DNA of 64,000 nucleotides from Candidatus Nitrosocosmicus agrestis. GTDB lineage: Archaea > Thermoproteota > Nitrososphaeria > Nitrososphaerales > Nitrososphaeraceae. This document shows, one piece after another, positions 3,035-40,888 of this stretch. The stretch covers positions 1 through 64,000 of the forward strand of contig NZ_VUYS01000017.1 of NCBI RefSeq assembly GCF_008389435.1, in the 5' to 3' direction. Under the pieces are notes generated by a model that was not told the DNA's origin, did not search any database, and saw only the letters and a list, made by a program, of their open reading frames with translations. The first letter of the stretch is position 1; the number at the start of each line of letters is the position of its first letter. The translations under genes were made by a program, and so were the position numbers.

Positions 3035-3707
3035 GGCTCTGTTAACTTAAGAAAATGATTTAGCTTGAAGATGCTCTATTTCTGTTATGTTAAGCAAAAG
3101 AAACAGAACTCCTTCTTTAGATATTGACCATGCTTTGTATTTGTACTTTCTTGGTCTGTCAACCAGAGGCGTTGCCAAAGCAATGTTCTTTCTACACAAA
3201 GTCAGGAGAAGTCATGTAGCCATCTGGAATTGGATTCAGAAACATAATCATCAAAGGATATCATCAAAGAGGAAGAAAATTTCAGAGTACATAGTAGATG
3301 AAACTATTTTAAAGGTTGGTTCAGAATACATCTGGCTCTGGGTAGCAATAGAGCCTGAGAACAGGCAAATTCTCGCACTATCCATCTCCAAGGAAAGAAA
3401 CATGTTCGTTGCTGAGAGATTCTTATCAGGTCTAGTCAAAATTCATGGAAAGCATCCAGTATCAACAGATGGTGGAACATGGTACCCTCAGGCTTGTAGG
3501 TTCCTAAAGATAAGACATCATCTTCATTCTCCTTTAGAGAAAAGCTTGATTGAAAGAACTATGCAATATATCAAAGATCGAACTGAAAGTTTCGATGATT
3601 ACTTTCCATGTCGAAAAGCAAACTGTAAACTAAATCATGTGATAAATTGGTTGAATCTATTTGTATGTAAACACAATAAGGATATAATGGCTTAAGTTAA
3701 CAGAGCC
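3035..3707 (+). mobile_element. Complete IS6-like insertion sequence, 673 bp
   Basis: Perfect 17-bp terminal inverted repeats: GGCTCTGTTAACTTAAG at 3035-3051 and its exact reverse complement at 3691-3707. They are flanked by an 8-bp direct repeat CAAAATAC (3027-3034 and 3708-3715), the target duplication. An 8-bp duplication, short length and a single transposase gene fit the IS6 family. The transposase stop codon overlaps the right inverted repeat. Perfect ends and an unbroken gene mean a recent, probably active copy. Confidence 0.95.
3087..3695 (+). CDS. IS6 family DDE transposase
   Basis: A 202-residue protein with an N-terminal helix-turn-helix region (about 10-60, including the family-typical FLGLSTRGVAKAM and SHVAIWNWIQK segments) and an RNase-H-like DDE catalytic domain. 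Candidate catalytic residues are D71 (VDETILK), D128 (STDGGTWYP) and E156 (SLIERTMQYIKDR). The Asp-Glu spacing is about 28 residues, a little below the classical 34. The enzyme catalyses cut-and-insert or replicative transposition of the IS. The ATG start lies 36 bp inside the left inverted repeat, and the gene runs into the right one. It is full length compared with the frameshifted copy at 29360-29979. Confidence 0.93.
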   Translation: MLSKRNRTPSLDIDHALYLYFLGLSTRGVAKAMFFLHKVRRSHVAIWNWIQKHNHQRISSKRKKISEYIVDETILKVGSEYIWLWVAIEPENRQILALSISKERNMFVAERFLSGLVKIHGKHPVSTDGGTWYPQACRFLKIRHHLHSPLEKSLIERTMQYIKDRTESFDDYFPCRKANCKLNHVINWLNLFVCKHNKDIMA

Positions 3708-3715
3708 CAAAATAC

Positions 3716-4592
3716 ACGCATATTAACTTTCAATTTTGAGGATTGTGGTTTAGGTTTATGTAATATTCATCAGTTTATTTTTCTGATAGTAATTGAAGTT
3801 GTTTTTTACGGATTATTTATTTTATTGAAATACCTACTAGGGCATCTTTATTTGCAGTTCTTGATTAGAAAGTTCAGAGACTATAACTACCCTGAGGGTT
3901 TTAGAATCATATTGTGACAAAATGGGTCATTCCTTGATTTGCCTTTTCCACATCATGGTAATATCCAACATCGTTTTAGACTCGAGTTACAAGATGACCG
4001 TCCAAAAAATAGGTTCATGAATGCTATTTTTTTGATTTTAATAGCTTTAAAGCGCCTAACTGCATGTTACAATTATCTCTTAAATTTATAACACTATCAA
4101 AATTATTTATATAACAAGTCATTGAAACAAGATGATAAAATAGGAGTTAAGAGAACTCATTATATTTACAATTGTATGCGTAGCTAGTTATTTTAGGGGA
4201 CACCTGTTGAGATATTTATAGGATTGTAACTTGAATAACTCATATCATAACCAAAATGTAATAATGGGTTGGATTCAATTTTATAGCCCAAAGAAATTCA
4301 ACTTTCACCCTTAATAAAAAAGACTAGAGCAAGAGCCAGCCGACACCTGCCCCTAAGCCTGTTACTCCTGAAAACATTTGACATTTGTAAAGTCTAAACG
4401 AGGGTAATGGATTTATAGTATATATTGTGAGATAGAATGTGGACACATTATAACGCATAGAATCAATTATTATATTATTGACAAAATTTTTTGCCTATCA
4501 GGAAACCTTTGGTAAAATTCATAAAATGTTCTAATCCATTTATCCGTGGTAAAAGATATATTCATACAGAAATTTCATTCTACTATATAATC
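3716..4592. other. AT-rich intergenic region upstream of aspS
   Basis: I see no supported gene. A short GC-richer patch at about 4324-4377 has a 17-codon hydrophobic frame on the minus strand (MFSGVTGLGAGVGWLLL), too short to call; it could be a gene scar. The aspS frame is open upstream to 4491 but the homology begins at 4593. Confidence 0.45.
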
Positions 4593-5954
4593 ATGGATGA
4601 AAAACTGATTGTCGAAGATACTCTTGGGGACTGGAGGAGAACTCATTATTCATCTGAGATTTCTCATTCTGTTGTTAATTCTGAAGTGATAGTGATAGGA
4701 TGGATTTCATCCAAGCGAGATCATGGAAACGTATTATTTGCATTACTCAGGGATCGATACGGTGACATTCAATTGGTTGTCAAGAAAAAAGAACTTCCTA
4801 AAGAATTATTTGATTCATTGAGAAATTTAAAGGAGCACTCTTCTATTGCAGTCAAGGGCATTGTGGTAGAACAAAAAAATGAGAATGGATCTTTTGAAAT
4901 TATTCCAAAGGAAATCAAAATTTTGTCTATATCCAATAAACCTGCGCCGTTTTTGACACAAGCCGTTTCATCTATTGGGATTGATACAAGATTAGACCTT
5001 CGAGCTATTGACTTGAGAAGAGATTATCTGCAAATTATCTTTAGAATAAGAAGAAATATTCTTAAATCCATTAGAAATTACTTTGATCAAAATCATTTTG
5101 TCGAAGTTAATACTCCCAAAATGATTGCAACTGCAACGGAAGGCGGTGCTGCACTCTTTCCCATATTCTACTATGACCGCGAAGCATTCCTGGCCCAGAG
5201 CCCGCAGTTGTACAAAGAACAACTCACTATGGCCTTTGAAAGTGTATATGAAATAGCCCCGATATTTAGGGCAGAACCATCTAGGACTAATCGGCATTTA
5301 TCCGAAGCCATTTCAGTTGATGCTGAAAAAGCATACGTTAATTATGATGATGCGATGGATATACTTGAAAACCTAATTAAACATGTTGTCGATTCAATTA
5401 AACACCATAATTTAACCGATTTAAAAGAACTCGAACTTGATCTGCCTGAAATATCTGGTCCTTTTCCACGCCTCGCGTATAGTGATTTGGTTTCAAAACT
5501 TCAAGAAAATCATAAATATATCAGATGGGGTGATGACATATCCCCAAAGATTCTAAGGGATATGTTTGGCGATGAGTTTTACTTCATAACTGATTGGCCA
5601 GCATCTACTAAACCATTTTATGTGAAATCTAAATTAGACAAATCCGATCAAAAACCTCATGGCGAAAATGACGAACGTATCTTAAGCGAATCCTTCGATT
5701 TGATGTTTGGAACGCTAGAGCTATCTTCTGGAAGCACTCGTATAAATAATAAGGTTGAATTAATGGAACAAATGAAGAATAAAGGTCTGAACCTTGAAGC
5801 ATTTGATTATCATCTGAGGATATTTGATTATGCAGTACCTCCTCATGCTGGTTTCGGTCTTGGTTTGGAGAGATTAATCATGGCGTTGCTGAAGTTAGAA
5901 AATATTCGAGACGCAACTTTTTACCCTAGAGATATAGACCGGCTTGCCCCATAA
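4593..5954 (+). CDS. aspS: Aspartyl-tRNA synthetase (archaeal type, probably Asp/Asn non-discriminating)
   Basis: Class IIb aminoacyl-tRNA synthetase that charges tRNA with Asp using ATP. The N-terminal OB-fold anticodon-binding domain (VIVIGWISSKRDHGNVLFALLRD) is followed by the catalytic core. That core has motif 2 FRAEPSRTNRHLSE and motif 3 HAGFGLGLERLIMALL, plus the Asp-binding QSPQLYKEQL segment. From the ATG at 4593 the product has 453 residues, close to the archaeal norm of about 430-440. An upstream in-frame ATG at 4491 would add a basic stretch that is not part of the family. The gatCAB genes follow directly. Such pairing usually means the enzyme also makes Asp-tRNA(Asn) for amidation, but that specificity is inferred from context. 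Confidence 0.95.
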   Translation: MDEKLIVEDTLGDWRRTHYSSEISHSVVNSEVIVIGWISSKRDHGNVLFALLRDRYGDIQLVVKKKELPKELFDSLRNLKEHSSIAVKGIVVEQKNENGSFEIIPKEIKILSISNKPAPFLTQAVSSIGIDTRLDLRAIDLRRDYLQIIFRIRRNILKSIRNYFDQNHFVEVNTPKMIATATEGGAALFPIFYYDREAFLAQSPQLYKEQLTMAFESVYEIAPIFRAEPSRTNRHLSEAISVDAEKAYVNYDDAMDILENLIKHVVDSIKHHNLTDLKELELDLPEISGPFPRLAYSDLVSKLQENHKYIRWGDDISPKILRDMFGDEFYFITDWPASTKPFYVKSKLDKSDQKPHGENDERILSESFDLMFGTLELSSGSTRINNKVELMEQMKNKGLNLEAFDYHLRIFDYAVPPHAGFGLGLERLIMALLKLENIRDATFYPRDIDRLAP

Positions 5955-5991
5955 AGTAAATATATTGTAAAGTATGTTCCCATGCTAGTAA

Positions 5992-6291
5992 ATGTCCAAT
6001 GAAATTGAAGTGAAAAAATTATGTGAACTTTCAAAATTGGAGATTCCGGATGAAATGATATTAGAAACCTCTAATAAGATTCGAGAGGTTATGTCCTTGT
6101 TTCACAAGCTTGATGAGTTAGACATAAGTAGTGCTGATGACACGGACAGTTATGGTGGGTTGAGAATAGAAAAATCCCTTGATTCCTTGAGAGGTGATGT
6201 CCCTCGTCGAAGTTTTTCTGTCACTGATTCAGTGGCTAAATTAAAATTATTGAATACTCGAAATGGGTTTGTTCTCGGACCAAGGATTTAA
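5992..6291 (+). CDS. gatC: Asp-tRNA(Asn)/Glu-tRNA(Gln) amidotransferase subunit C
   Basis: The 99-residue product has the GatC pattern: an N-terminal VKKLCELSKLEIPDE helix and a central hydrophobic/acidic helix, then the Arg-x-Asp-x-Pro-like segment LRGDVPRRSF near residue 65. GatC is the small subunit that stabilises GatA and wraps the GatA-GatB interface. It sits 37 bp after aspS and 3 bp before gatA, so the three gat genes and aspS form one likely transcription unit. Length is normal for the family. Confidence 0.93.
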   Translation: MSNEIEVKKLCELSKLEIPDEMILETSNKIREVMSLFHKLDELDISSADDTDSYGGLRIEKSLDSLRGDVPRRSFSVTDSVAKLKLLNTRNGFVLGPRI

Positions 6292-6294
6292 GAT

Positions 6295-7758
6295 TTGACA
6301 AACTTGCTAGAATTGCCTGCTCATGTTGTAATCGGTAAAATAAAAGGAAACGATTTGAAGGCAGTAGAGTATGTTTCTGTTTTAATTCAAAGGATAAAAG
6401 ATATTGATTATAAAATTAATTCATTTATATCTACAAATTTTGAAAACGCAATTAAACAAGCAAAAATTGTAGACAAAAAAATTCAATCTGGTGAGAGTGT
6501 AGGTATGCTTGCTGGAATTCCTATAGGGATAAAAGATAACATTAGCGTCAAAGGATTGCGTAACACTTGTGCCTCACAAATGTTGAGAGATTATGAATCC
6601 CCTTACAATGCAACTGTAGTTACTAATATTGAATTTCAGGATGGTATTGTAATGGGCAAAACTAATATGGATGAATTTGGCATGGGCAATACATCAGAAT
6701 ACTCATCATTTGGCCCTGTCAAGAATCCTTGGAATAGCGAATACGTCGCGGGAGGATCTTCTGGCGGAAGTGCCGCAGCCGTTTCATCCTTGCAGGTTCC
6801 GCTAGCATTGGGTTCAGATACGGGTGGGTCAATAAGATGTCCCTCGAGTTTTTGCTCCGTGGTTGGTTTAAAGCCTAGTTATGGTAGGGTAAGTCGAAGT
6901 GGTTTGATTTCATACTCTAATTCGTTAGAACAGATAGGGCCAGTTGCTAGAAATATAACCGATCTGGCCCTTCTGTTTAATACAATTGAGGGTACTGACG
7001 CTTTTGATAATACCACAGCCTGTTCACATAAAAAAAGTGTAATTAATTCATTAGATCAGATCACCTCAAAAGGATACCAGATTGGAATTTTTTCAAATTT
7101 AACTGAAAATTCGGACATTCAAGTTCAGTCCAAATTAATGGAAATGATAAAGGTATTTGAAAGGCATCAGTTTGTTCTGGAAAATATAGACCTAAGATTA
7201 AAGGAGTTTGCTGTGGCCGCTTATTATATAATCGCAACCGCTGAAGCAAGCAGTAATTTGTCTAGATTTGACAATGTAAGATACGGATATCCTTCTAATC
7301 CTGAGGGATTTGAGTGGAATCGTTATTATGAAAAGTCAAGGTCATTATTTGGTGATGAGGTTAAGAGAAGAATACTCTTGGGATCTTTCGTTTTGTCTGC
7401 AGGTTATTTTGGAAAATATTATGCCAAAGCCCAGGCCTTTCGAAATATGTTGCGCACTGAATTCGAGAGATTGTTTAAAAAATATGACGTACTCATCCTT
7501 CCTACCATGCCAATTTTGCCCATTAAGTTAGGGGAAAAAATATCAAATCCCGTACAATTGTATAATTTTGATTTATTTACAATATTAGCCAATTTAACAG
7601 GATTACCTGCCATCACACTGCCGGCAGGATTTTCAGATACGGGTTTACCTATAGGAATTCAAATCATGGCCAATTCATTTGAAGAACAAAAGCTATTCGA
7701 TTTAGCCGTCTTATTTGAAGATGAGAGTAAATTTACGGAGCGGACACCAACTATATGA
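6295..7758 (+). CDS. gatA: Asp-tRNA(Asn)/Glu-tRNA(Gln) amidotransferase subunit A
   Basis: Amidase-signature enzyme that hydrolyses glutamine to supply ammonia for converting Asp-tRNA(Asn) to Asn-tRNA(Asn), and probably Glu-tRNA(Gln) to Gln-tRNA(Gln). The Ser-cisSer-Lys triad is visible as K80 (GIPIGIKDN), S155 in the GGSSGGSAAA block and S179 (DTGGSIRCPSS). The 487-residue length is typical. It starts at TTG, 3 bp after gatC, and its stop overlaps the gatB start (ATGA), so translation is probably coupled. Confidence 0.96.
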   Translation: MTNLLELPAHVVIGKIKGNDLKAVEYVSVLIQRIKDIDYKINSFISTNFENAIKQAKIVDKKIQSGESVGMLAGIPIGIKDNISVKGLRNTCASQMLRDYESPYNATVVTNIEFQDGIVMGKTNMDEFGMGNTSEYSSFGPVKNPWNSEYVAGGSSGGSAAAVSSLQVPLALGSDTGGSIRCPSSFCSVVGLKPSYGRVSRSGLISYSNSLEQIGPVARNITDLALLFNTIEGTDAFDNTTACSHKKSVINSLDQITSKGYQIGIFSNLTENSDIQVQSKLMEMIKVFERHQFVLENIDLRLKEFAVAAYYIIATAEASSNLSRFDNVRYGYPSNPEGFEWNRYYEKSRSLFGDEVKRRILLGSFVLSAGYFGKYYAKAQAFRNMLRTEFERLFKKYDVLILPTMPILPIKLGEKISNPVQLYNFDLFTILANLTGLPAITLPAGFSDTGLPIGIQIMANSFEEQKLFDLAVLFEDESKFTERTPTI

Positions 7759-9278
7759 ATAGAAAGGAAATGTTCAAAGAGAATTTAAAAATAGGACTCG
7801 AGATACATTGTCAGCTTACTAATCTCAATACCAAGTTATTCTGTAATTGTCTGTCAAATTATCGTAATTCTTTGCCAAATGATAATACATGCCCAATTTG
7901 CTTGGGTTTACCCGGAACTTTGCCATTGTTGAATAAAAGGGCAGTTGATTTTGCCTCTATGGTATGTATTGCTTTGAATTGTAAAATTCCAGAAAAGATT
8001 TCGTTTTACAGAAAAAACTATTTTTATCCTGACTTGCCGAAGAATTTTCAAATCACACAGTACAACTCGTACGAGATTAGTAGTATCGGATATGAGGGAC
8101 ATTTTAGTATTGATGATGATTCGGGTGCGTTTACCCAGATGGCAAATTCAAAGCCGTCTAAGTCTCAAATTAGGATATCCAGAATTCAGTTAGAAGAAGA
8201 CCCTGGTAAGATTGTATACGAAGATGAAAAGACTTCTGCCAATACTTACTCCCTTATAGATTATAACAGAGCAGGCGTGGCGCTTATAGAAATTGTAACA
8301 GAACCTGACTTTTCTAGCTCACATGACGTTAGGATCTTTTTAAATGATTTGATAAATATTTTTGAATATCTCGGAGTGTGTGATCCTAGTCTGGAGGGGT
8401 CGATACGATGTGATGTGAATGTCTCTTTGAGAGGTGGAAAAAAAGTTGAAATTAAAAATATCAGCTCATTTAAAGACGTTGAAAAATCTATCAACTACGA
8501 AGTTACCCGTCAGAGAACGATGATAATGCATGATATGGAAGTACAAGCCGAAACTAGGCACTGGGATGAAAAAAGAAAAATAACAATTTCTTCCAGATCG
8601 AAAGAAGAAGAAGAGGAATATCGTTATTTTCCTGAACCGGATATCCCAGTAATATTATTAGGTGGCCAATCTTTCGTTTCATCTATTAGGTCTCAGATGC
8701 ATGAGTTGCCTAATGAAAGATTACAGAGATATAAAGAACAAATGGGATTGAGTACTCATACCGCAAATATTCTGGCAAACAGCAAGAAGATAAGTGATTA
8801 CTTTGAAGAGTCCTTGAAACATTATAATTCTCCAATAGAAATATCAAATTGGATAGTAAACGAACTACTCTCAAAGATTAATGAGATGGAAAAGTCCGAT
8901 GCTAGCAAAGGTGTTGTAATTGACTTGGCAGCCAAGATGTCTCCTGCCATGATCGCCAATATGGCAAAACTCGTTTCAGAAAAAGGATTGAATAGAAATA
9001 TGGCAAGAGAAATTTTTGCCAAGAGTTTTCAATCCGGAGAAGATCCTTACTATATTGTAAAAAGCATGAATGTTGAAAAAATCTCTGATTCTGAGGAGAT
9101 TCTCTCTTTGATAACCGAGACTTTAGAGATTCAACCCACTTTGATTGACCAATCAAAAACAAATCCTAATGTTGTTAATTTCATTTTGGGTTTGATAATG
9201 AAAAAGACAAGAGGTAGGACGAATCCTCAGTTAGCCATAAAGCTTATTCAAGATGTTCTCAGCTCTAAGAAGAATTAA
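7755..9278 (+). CDS. gatB: Asp-tRNA(Asn)/Glu-tRNA(Gln) amidotransferase subunit B
   Basis: tRNA-binding and kinase-type subunit: it phosphorylates the misacylated tRNA side chain and accepts ammonia channelled from GatA. Features seen: the N-terminal IGLEIHCQL block; four zinc-ligand cysteines at about 30, 32, 46 and 49; the catalytic GatB cradle (RKNYFYPDLPKNFQITQY, then RIQLEEDPGK); and a C-terminal YqeY-like helical tail ending MKKTRGRTNPQLA, which contacts the tRNA elbow. The 507-residue length is normal. ATG overlaps the gatA stop by 4 bases. It is a canonical GatB rather than GatE, so the window encodes the GatCAB route. Confidence 0.96.
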   Translation: MNRKEMFKENLKIGLEIHCQLTNLNTKLFCNCLSNYRNSLPNDNTCPICLGLPGTLPLLNKRAVDFASMVCIALNCKIPEKISFYRKNYFYPDLPKNFQITQYNSYEISSIGYEGHFSIDDDSGAFTQMANSKPSKSQIRISRIQLEEDPGKIVYEDEKTSANTYSLIDYNRAGVALIEIVTEPDFSSSHDVRIFLNDLINIFEYLGVCDPSLEGSIRCDVNVSLRGGKKVEIKNISSFKDVEKSINYEVTRQRTMIMHDMEVQAETRHWDEKRKITISSRSKEEEEEYRYFPEPDIPVILLGGQSFVSSIRSQMHELPNERLQRYKEQMGLSTHTANILANSKKISDYFEESLKHYNSPIEISNWIVNELLSKINEMEKSDASKGVVIDLAAKMSPAMIANMAKLVSEKGLNRNMAREIFAKSFQSGEDPYYIVKSMNVEKISDSEEILSLITETLEIQPTLIDQSKTNPNVVNFILGLIMKKTRGRTNPQLAIKLIQDVLSSKKN

Positions 9279-20140: not shown

Positions 20141-20236
20141 GCCGTCGTAGCTCAGCCTGGAAGAGCACTCGACTGTGATATCTACAGGGTGAAGCTGAAG
20201 ACCGAGCTGTCGTGAGCTCAAATCTCACCGGCGGCA
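20141..20236 (+). tRNA. tRNA-Phe(GAA) with a 22-nt non-canonical intron
   Basis: Acceptor arms GCCGTCG and CGGCGGC pair over 7 bp with discriminator A. The D arm GCTC...GAGC, a 5-bp T stem GTGAG/CTCAC with loop CTCAAAT and a 5-nt variable loop are all present. Read straight through, the anticodon arm does not fold. Removing 20172-20193 gives stem CTCGG/CCGAG (5 perfect pairs) and loop CTGAAGA, anticodon GAA. The intron sits between positions 30 and 31. A bulge-helix-bulge can be drawn: bulge CG^A, central helix CACT/GGTG, inner helix CTGT/ACAG with a 7-nt loop, and bulge AA^G. Both cuts fall after the second bulge base. The mature tRNA is 74 nt and CCA is not encoded. Reading through the intron would suggest a false GTG (His) anticodon. 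Confidence 0.93.
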
Positions 20237-39607: not shown

Positions 39608-40261
39608 ATCGGCTTTTAAGTGTTTATGAAATACCAGGGGATATAATCCTGAAGAATTTCAAAAATAATACTCACTTTTTAAATGCTAGGATCCTACAAT
39701 TTAACATTCAGTCAGAGTAGTTGCAAATTCCTAAAACCAATACAATTTTCAGGTTTTTATATAAAAATATTATTCTCCTTCTATAAATTTAAAACTGTTA
39801 AGAATAACTTATTTTAGGCATTTGAAACTTTTCGAATTAAGAATAATTTTATCGGGTGCAGAGAGCAAGATAAATAACGAAAAAGTGCTAAGAATAAAAA
39901 TCTGAAGGAAGCGAATTATATTCGTGTATTTCTCTTCTACCCTAATGCAGCAACTTTTATTTAGCCTGATTAACAGATTCATTTTCAATTCAGGTAAGTA
40001 TGGCAGCAATCCTGCTTGCACGGTATATTGTATTTTTATTTGATTTATTAGGTTTGATATCAACAATCTTTTCGCTTTGGCGACAAAATAAGAAAAGGAA
40101 AAAGATAAAAATAAAAATACTTTAATTTACAAAGTAAAGGTCAAACAAAAATGAAATTAGTTCATGTTACTAATAATATAGGCTGTTTATACTATTTATC
40201 CAAGAGATGTCTGATACAAAAATAGCAAAAAAAAATTAAACAAAGTCGAGGTGATTTATTG
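39608..40261. other. Intergenic region upstream of the HNH gene
   Basis: No supported gene. An 85-codon frame on the minus strand (39809-40066) has a poor N-terminus and a chance-like composition. A GAGGTGAT block at 40249-40256 is a good ribosome-binding site for the HNH start. Confidence 0.4.
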
Positions 40262-40888
40262 ATGAGAGTTAAACGAAGGAAACGAAATTACCGCGGATCC
40301 ACGAATAATTGTGCTTTGACAAATTTGAAATCTTCCAATATAAAAAATGATATCAGTATTAGCGTAAAGACCAATGGTGATCCCATTAAAACAAAACATA
40401 TACCCTCTAGACCACCAAAGCTAATTGTCTATATAAATGAGTTTGATAAGACGGATGATATAGGAAATCCTCAATGTAGAAACAATAACTGCACTAACCC
40501 TGTATGTAAACCATTCAGGAAGTATTGTTCTCTACAGTGCTCCAAACAGTTTACAAAATGGTATAACAGCAACTTTTATTGGAGAAATGTTCGTAATAGT
40601 GTCTTAAGAAGAGATGATTTTACCTGCCAACTTTGTGGTATTAAATTGAATAGAAGAAAGAAAATGAACAAAGGAACGAAAAATTGGCTGGAATGTGATC
40701 ATATAATACCCAAATCATTTTACAAGTCTATAGGTTACGAGTTTAACACATTAGAGGACAAAGTTAAAACTATTCTTGAATTTGTCCACAATAGAAACAA
40801 TCTTAGAACTCTCTGTTATCAATGCCATAGAAAGGAATCAAATAACCTATATAATATTAAATCTCGTTTTGTCAACCCTGAAGACTAG
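40262..40888 (+). CDS. HNH endonuclease with an N-terminal zinc knuckle
   Basis: A 208-residue protein. The first 60 residues are basic and Lys/Arg-rich. A CRNNNCTNPVC...YCSLQC cluster (about 73-100) could bind zinc. The HNH/treble-clef nuclease follows: CQLCG (about 120), CDHIIPKS with the catalytic DH pair, NNLRTLCYQCHRKES with the N and final H. ATG at 40262 is chosen over the preceding TTG because of the GAGGTG ribosome-binding site 6 bp upstream. Likely a DNA nicking or homing-type or restriction-like enzyme. No methyltransferase or intron lies nearby, so its role is open. Confidence 0.85.
   Translation: MRVKRRKRNYRGSTNNCALTNLKSSNIKNDISISVKTNGDPIKTKHIPSRPPKLIVYINEFDKTDDIGNPQCRNNNCTNPVCKPFRKYCSLQCSKQFTKWYNSNFYWRNVRNSVLRRDDFTCQLCGIKLNRRKKMNKGTKNWLECDHIIPKSFYKSIGYEFNTLEDKVKTILEFVHNRNNLRTLCYQCHRKESNNLYNIKSRFVNPED

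Follow-up and report, generated by a model that had tools for sequence, protein, structure and literature searches.

An intron-split tRNA-Phe(GAA) gene with a 22-nt intron at position 30/31 in Candidatus Nitrosocosmicus agrestis

The tRNA-Phe(GAA) locus and the limits of its intron

The window, which is the whole 64,000-nt stretch of DNA analysed from the ammonia-oxidising archaeon Candidatus Nitrosocosmicus agrestis, carries at 20141-20236 a tRNA-Phe(GAA) gene that is split by an intron (Table 1) and reads GCCGTCGTAGCTCAGCCTGGAAGAGCACTCG / ACTGTGATATCTACAGGGTGAA / GCTGAAGACCGAGCTGTCGTGAGCTCAAATCTCACCGGCGGCA. The Rfam tRNA model RF00005 matches exactly this interval, with a score of 46.1 bits, a gathering score of 29 and an E-value of 1.2e-6 for the window. 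The limits of the intron were located by scoring the cloverleaf after each possible single-intron deletion. The unique optimum was the removal of 20172-20193 (22 nt, between positions 30 and 31), which gives the anticodon GAA and a score of 49.9, compared with 46.9-51.9 for most intronless tRNAs of the host genome and with control maxima of 21.3 among 1500 shuffles of 20141-20236 and 21.7 among approximately 1500 random segments of the window. The product is a 74-nt tRNA with the anticodon stem CTCGG/CCGAG, as had been described in the original prediction, and with the loop CTGAAGA. The observation of an intron-split tRNA-Phe(GAA) at this place is confirmed, both by the deletion scan and by the introns read in the family, all of which lie at 30/31.

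Table 1. Features of the tRNA-Phe(GAA) gene and of its bulge-helix-bulge motif (window coordinates)
Feature	Coordinates	Strand	Basis
5' exon, tRNA positions 1-30, 31 nt	20141..20171	+	Rfam, deletion scan; little or no change in any family copy
Intron at 30/31, 22 nt	20172..20193	+	Unique best deletion; intronless orthologues lack it and have the same junction
3' exon, tRNA positions 31-73, 43 nt	20194..20236	+	Rfam, deletion scan, family copies
Anticodon GAA (34-36)	20197..20199	+	Deletion scan
Central helix, exon strand CACU (25-28)	20166..20169	+	Pairs with 20188-20191 in 196/196 cells, 49 combinations
5' bulge CG^A; predicted cut at 20171/20172	20170..20172	+	Sequence, relatives
Intron hairpin h', CUGUG(AUAUC)UACAG	20173..20187	+	Covaries in relatives
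Central helix, intron strand GGUG	20188..20191	+	Pairing with exon 25-28
3' bulge AA^G; predicted cut at 20193/20194	20192..20194	+	Sequence, relatives

In the intron-blind Rfam alignment, GUG occupies the anticodon place, which is the false GTG expected of the unspliced copy. ARAGORN, applied both to the window and to every tRNA locus, made no call at 20141-20236 and also missed most of the other genes with unusual introns, in agreement with the warning that simple annotators may overlook the gene. This GUG is what would lead a simple annotator to call a tRNA-His(GTG), but the intronless orthologues of the gene read GAA, and a separate tRNA with CTGTGG in the anticodon loop and a 28-nt intron, located at G000:C1:18797-18898 (L026), is probably the true tRNA-His(GTG). 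The probability of the tRNA-His reading is therefore practically nil.

The junctions lie within a bulge-helix-bulge (BHB) motif, whose proposed pieces (CG^A, CACT/GGTG, CTGT/ACAG and AA^G) were all located where they had been claimed. The core motif is canonical, comprising a 3-nt bulge, a 4-bp helix and a 3-nt bulge, with each junction behind the second nucleotide of its bulge, and its location alone is non-standard. Pairing was analysed in a set of 49 different combinations of exon and intron, drawn from eight families of which two lie outside the order. The central helix, formed by exon positions 25-28 and the intron, is paired in all 196 of the 196 cells, a count that is not one of independent cases because the sequences are related. 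Its exon side varies (U28 or C28, C27 or U27), and a two-sided change is seen once only, in L189, which has G26-C versus A26-U elsewhere. In the inner hairpin h', the first three pairs are kept in 134 of 141 cells while the sequence changes, versus a mean of 90.0 (sd 4.2, maximum 104) in 2000 shuffled controls, the observed cells again coming from related sequences and not from independent events. The outer helix h consists of two pairs only, G24-C32 and A23-U33, which are invariant across the set. The minimum-free-energy fold of the precursor contains neither the BHB nor the cloverleaf; since the fold of the spliced tRNA likewise lacks the cloverleaf, the precursor fold is uninformative.

Owing to the CTG at both ends of the intron (ACTG...GCTG), the same 22-nt length could also be excised by cuts shifted to 31/32 through 34/35, which would set A31 opposite C39. 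With such cuts, however, the anticodon stem would contain an A-C mismatch, and their scores are below that of 30/31, which is the unique optimum. Moreover, the BHB bulges fix 30/31, many relatives have no CTG repeat at the intron start, and the intronless orthologues have G31. Shifted splice sites are thus very unlikely, and 30/31 is the preferred position.

Copy number of tRNA-Phe and other tRNA genes of the host

The host genome (3.22 Mb in 43 contigs, 98.9% complete) contains 37 tRNA genes according to RF00005. With the tRNA-Phe model the 20141-20236 locus scores 82.6 bits, and the next match, at 70.6 bits, is a tRNA-Met. Another intronless tRNA-Phe(GAA) in the genome, which the original prediction had named as evidence that would count against it, was looked for, and no second tRNA-Phe, intronless or other, was found in the 98.9%-complete genome with RF00005 or the tRNA-Phe model. 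Intronless tRNA-Phe genes reach up to 107 bits with this model, so that a host copy would have shown up. In each of the three single-contig congeneric genomes (G006-G008) there is one full-length tRNA-Phe match. Decoding of UUU and UUC needs tRNA-Phe; with no second source of it found in the genome, splicing of this gene should be required for both codons to be read.

A decayed tRNA gene whose insertion is never removed might be proposed, as splicing is here predicted from sequence. This pseudogene reading conflicts with the presence of only one tRNA-Phe in the genome as searched, and with the near-constant exons and the kept intron pairing across the family, which make it extremely improbable. 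Shifted sites, a pseudogene and tRNA-His were accordingly rejected on the stem mismatch, the sole tRNA-Phe copy and the GAA of the orthologues, respectively. Almost certainly, the 20141-20236 locus is a functional tRNA-Phe(GAA) gene present in a single copy, whose 22-nt intron at 30/31 is predicted to fold into a BHB and to be removed, leaving the exons joined as a 74-nt tRNA.

Other introns outside 37/38 occur in the host genome in tRNA-Ala(TGC) (about 40/41), tRNA-Asn (about 25/26) and tRNA-Pro(GGG) (about 29/30), while tRNA-Arg(CCT) and tRNA-Asp have introns in the D arm. Three loci, L034, L036 and L037 (host C28:186460, C33:36254 and C38:25337), for which Rfam gives truncated matches only, carry introns either in the D arm or close to the acceptor stem, and L037 may contain more than one.

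Elsewhere in the window, the region 4491-9278 encodes, in this order, a tRNA synthetase of class II (Asp/Asn/Lys type), an amidase of the GatA type and GatB, a gene set that suggests tRNA-dependent amidation. An IS240-type transposase-like ORF is located at 3087-3695, and an ORF with a weak match to HNH endonuclease at 40259-40888.

Distribution of tRNA-Phe introns among relatives

Among the 70 genomes of the family Nitrososphaeraceae, 58 have a full-length match of 89-109 nt, three have a 74-nt gene, and nine drafts are without a full-length match; that is, an intron-length copy is present in 58 of the 61 genomes with a full-length gene. The 47 intron-bearing copies comprise 39 distinct introns of 15-42 nt, all at 30/31. 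These introns share one bulge-helix-bulge, made up of CG^A, a 4-bp helix and AA^G, and they start with A (T once) and end with RGTGAA or GGTGAT. The tRNA-Phe exons hardly vary among the family copies. The exon variant CCTGGAAGAGC, present in 14 of the 47 copies, is a mark of the host genus Nitrosocosmicus. It was found in five Candidatus Nitrosocosmicus records, with introns letter for letter as in host-genus genomes, and also in four records that bear the label Nitrosopumilus sp. or Nitrososphaeraceae.

The three 74-nt intronless genes belong to G025, G029 and G042 (the L072, L073 and L071 set), which are part of one genus. Their anticodon stem is CTCCG/CGGAG versus CTCGG/CCGAG, a switch from G30-C40 to C30-G40, so the absence of the intron goes together with a switched pair 30-40, adjoining the former splice site. 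The intron has apparently been lost inside this genus.

One relative, G041, has four dispersed extra tRNA-Phe(GAA) copies (L067-L070) besides its normal copy (L051). Their exons are diverged (GCCGCTG...) and their introns are longer (33, 42, 40 and 41 nt), and the flanks (L221-L224) share only about 115-130 bp, which is essentially the tRNA gene itself. The presence of five tRNA-Phe genes in a single archaeon is unusual.

Most intronless tRNA-Phe copies read from the order's other families have CACTCGGCTGAAGACCGAG / GAGCACTCGGCTGAAGACCGAG spanning the site, a sequence identical to the predicted spliced junction. This agreement between sequences is the strongest single evidence for the putative splice junction. 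Among the genes read in the order, the 30/31 intron occurs in f1, f2, f5 (genus g23), f7, f10 (g31) and f13, and the tRNA-Phe of f10 g31 has a second intron at about 22/23. A D-loop intron is found in f3 (G095), f5 (g21) and f14 (g56), a D-stem intron in f14 (G295), and introns in both D-loop and D-stem in f4, f6 and probably f12, where the parse is ambiguous. No intron is present in the tRNA-Phe genes of f8, f9, f10 (g30) and f3 (G076), nor in those read from f11.

Outside the order, the 30/31 intron was identified elsewhere in the phylum in G338 (f33) and G342 (f34). Its motif is also present in a Bathyarchaeum record (L278) and in two Micrarchaeota records (L244 and L250), the latter two with an apparent further interruption in the T arm, seemingly a second intron in the T loop. 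A spliced-tRNA search in 20 genomes without a clear tRNA-Phe yielded mostly partial matches and no new complete, parseable tRNA-Phe. The 30/31 site is not singular, being conserved through the family and recurring in the tRNA-Phe of other archaeal families.

It is conceivable, if rather unlikely, that the tRNA-Phe 30/31 intron is very old and owes its persistence, or its recurrent return, at this single site to the tRNA-Phe exons, in which half of the BHB is already present. The data fit both ancient inheritance and recurrent gain at a preferred site, and no choice is made between them here. The tRNA-Phe genes of the order represent a natural series (30/31, D-loop, D-stem, two places, none) for archaeal intron gain and loss.

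Splicing enzymes and comparison with known systems

The splicing endonuclease domain PF01974 occurs twice in the host genome and PF01139 (RtcB) once. The product of L087 (1186-1785) gave its best alignment to the solved enzymes 2cv8 and 3p1z, which are crenarchaeal catalytic subunits, and has the active-site His (IDHAPYL) and Lys (TTVKKQFILA) in place. In its loop GISKPK, K54 falls on the K44 column and K56 on R46 of 3p1z. The product of L088 (1081-1803) is without the active-site His and is likely the structural subunit. Separate genes for a catalytic (L087) and a structural (L088) subunit are thus predicted, and the enzyme would belong to the two-subunit, broad-specificity class. Thaumarchaeota have a two-subunit splicing endonuclease (PMC4090602), and in A. 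pernix K44 and residue 46 (Arg or Lys) of the Crenarchaea-specific loop have been linked to cleavage and to broad substrate use (PMC12397907).

The claim that a 30/31 site needs an endonuclease of relaxed specificity stands in part: the host appears to have such an enzyme, with two subunits and of the class with broad specificity, but the strict need was not borne out, the BHB core being canonical, with only the position odd and an outer helix of two pairs.

In the proposed route, exon C25-U28 of the pre-tRNA would pair with the GGUG close to the intron's 3' end to form the BHB, in which the bulges CG^A and AA^G flank the central helix and the intron contains a small hairpin of its own. Each bulge would be cut behind its second nucleotide by the archaeal two-subunit endonuclease, and ligation of the exons by RtcB would produce the 74-nt tRNA. 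The gene set for cleavage and joining is complete in the host and is expected to be active there, and we infer that transcription, cleavage and ligation take place in this organism.

The practical consequence is that a pitfall of annotation is removed: in a search that takes no account of introns, the genome would appear to have no tRNA-Phe or to have an odd tRNA-His. The papers covered on the tRNA introns of Nitrososphaera, Nitrosocosmicus and Thaumarchaeota, a literature sample with few subscription journals, do not report this particular tRNA-Phe intron, and novelty is not implied.

Non-canonical intron sites in archaeal tRNAs include 20/21, 25/26, 29/30 and 30/31 (PMC4090602). The tRNA-Phe intron agrees with these in its listed 30/31 position, in the 3-nt bulge/4-bp helix/3-nt bulge, in its short length and in a host group with a two-subunit endonuclease; nothing essential is different, only isotype and host. 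In Thaumarchaeota, 107 non-canonical introns were found using tRNAscan-SE 2.0, which has a Thaumarchaeota BHB model (PMC8450103); the lineage, under its older naming, and the type of motif are the same as here. The 30/31 junction is also shared with the split tRNA-Lys(CUU) of Nanoarchaeum equitans and some Staphylothermus (PMC4090602). In that system two gene pieces are joined in trans, whereas the tRNA-Phe is spliced in cis from one transcript. The endonuclease chemistry is presumably the same in both. The tRNA-Phe 30/31 intron is a well-supported, ordinary case of documented archaeal tRNA splicing.
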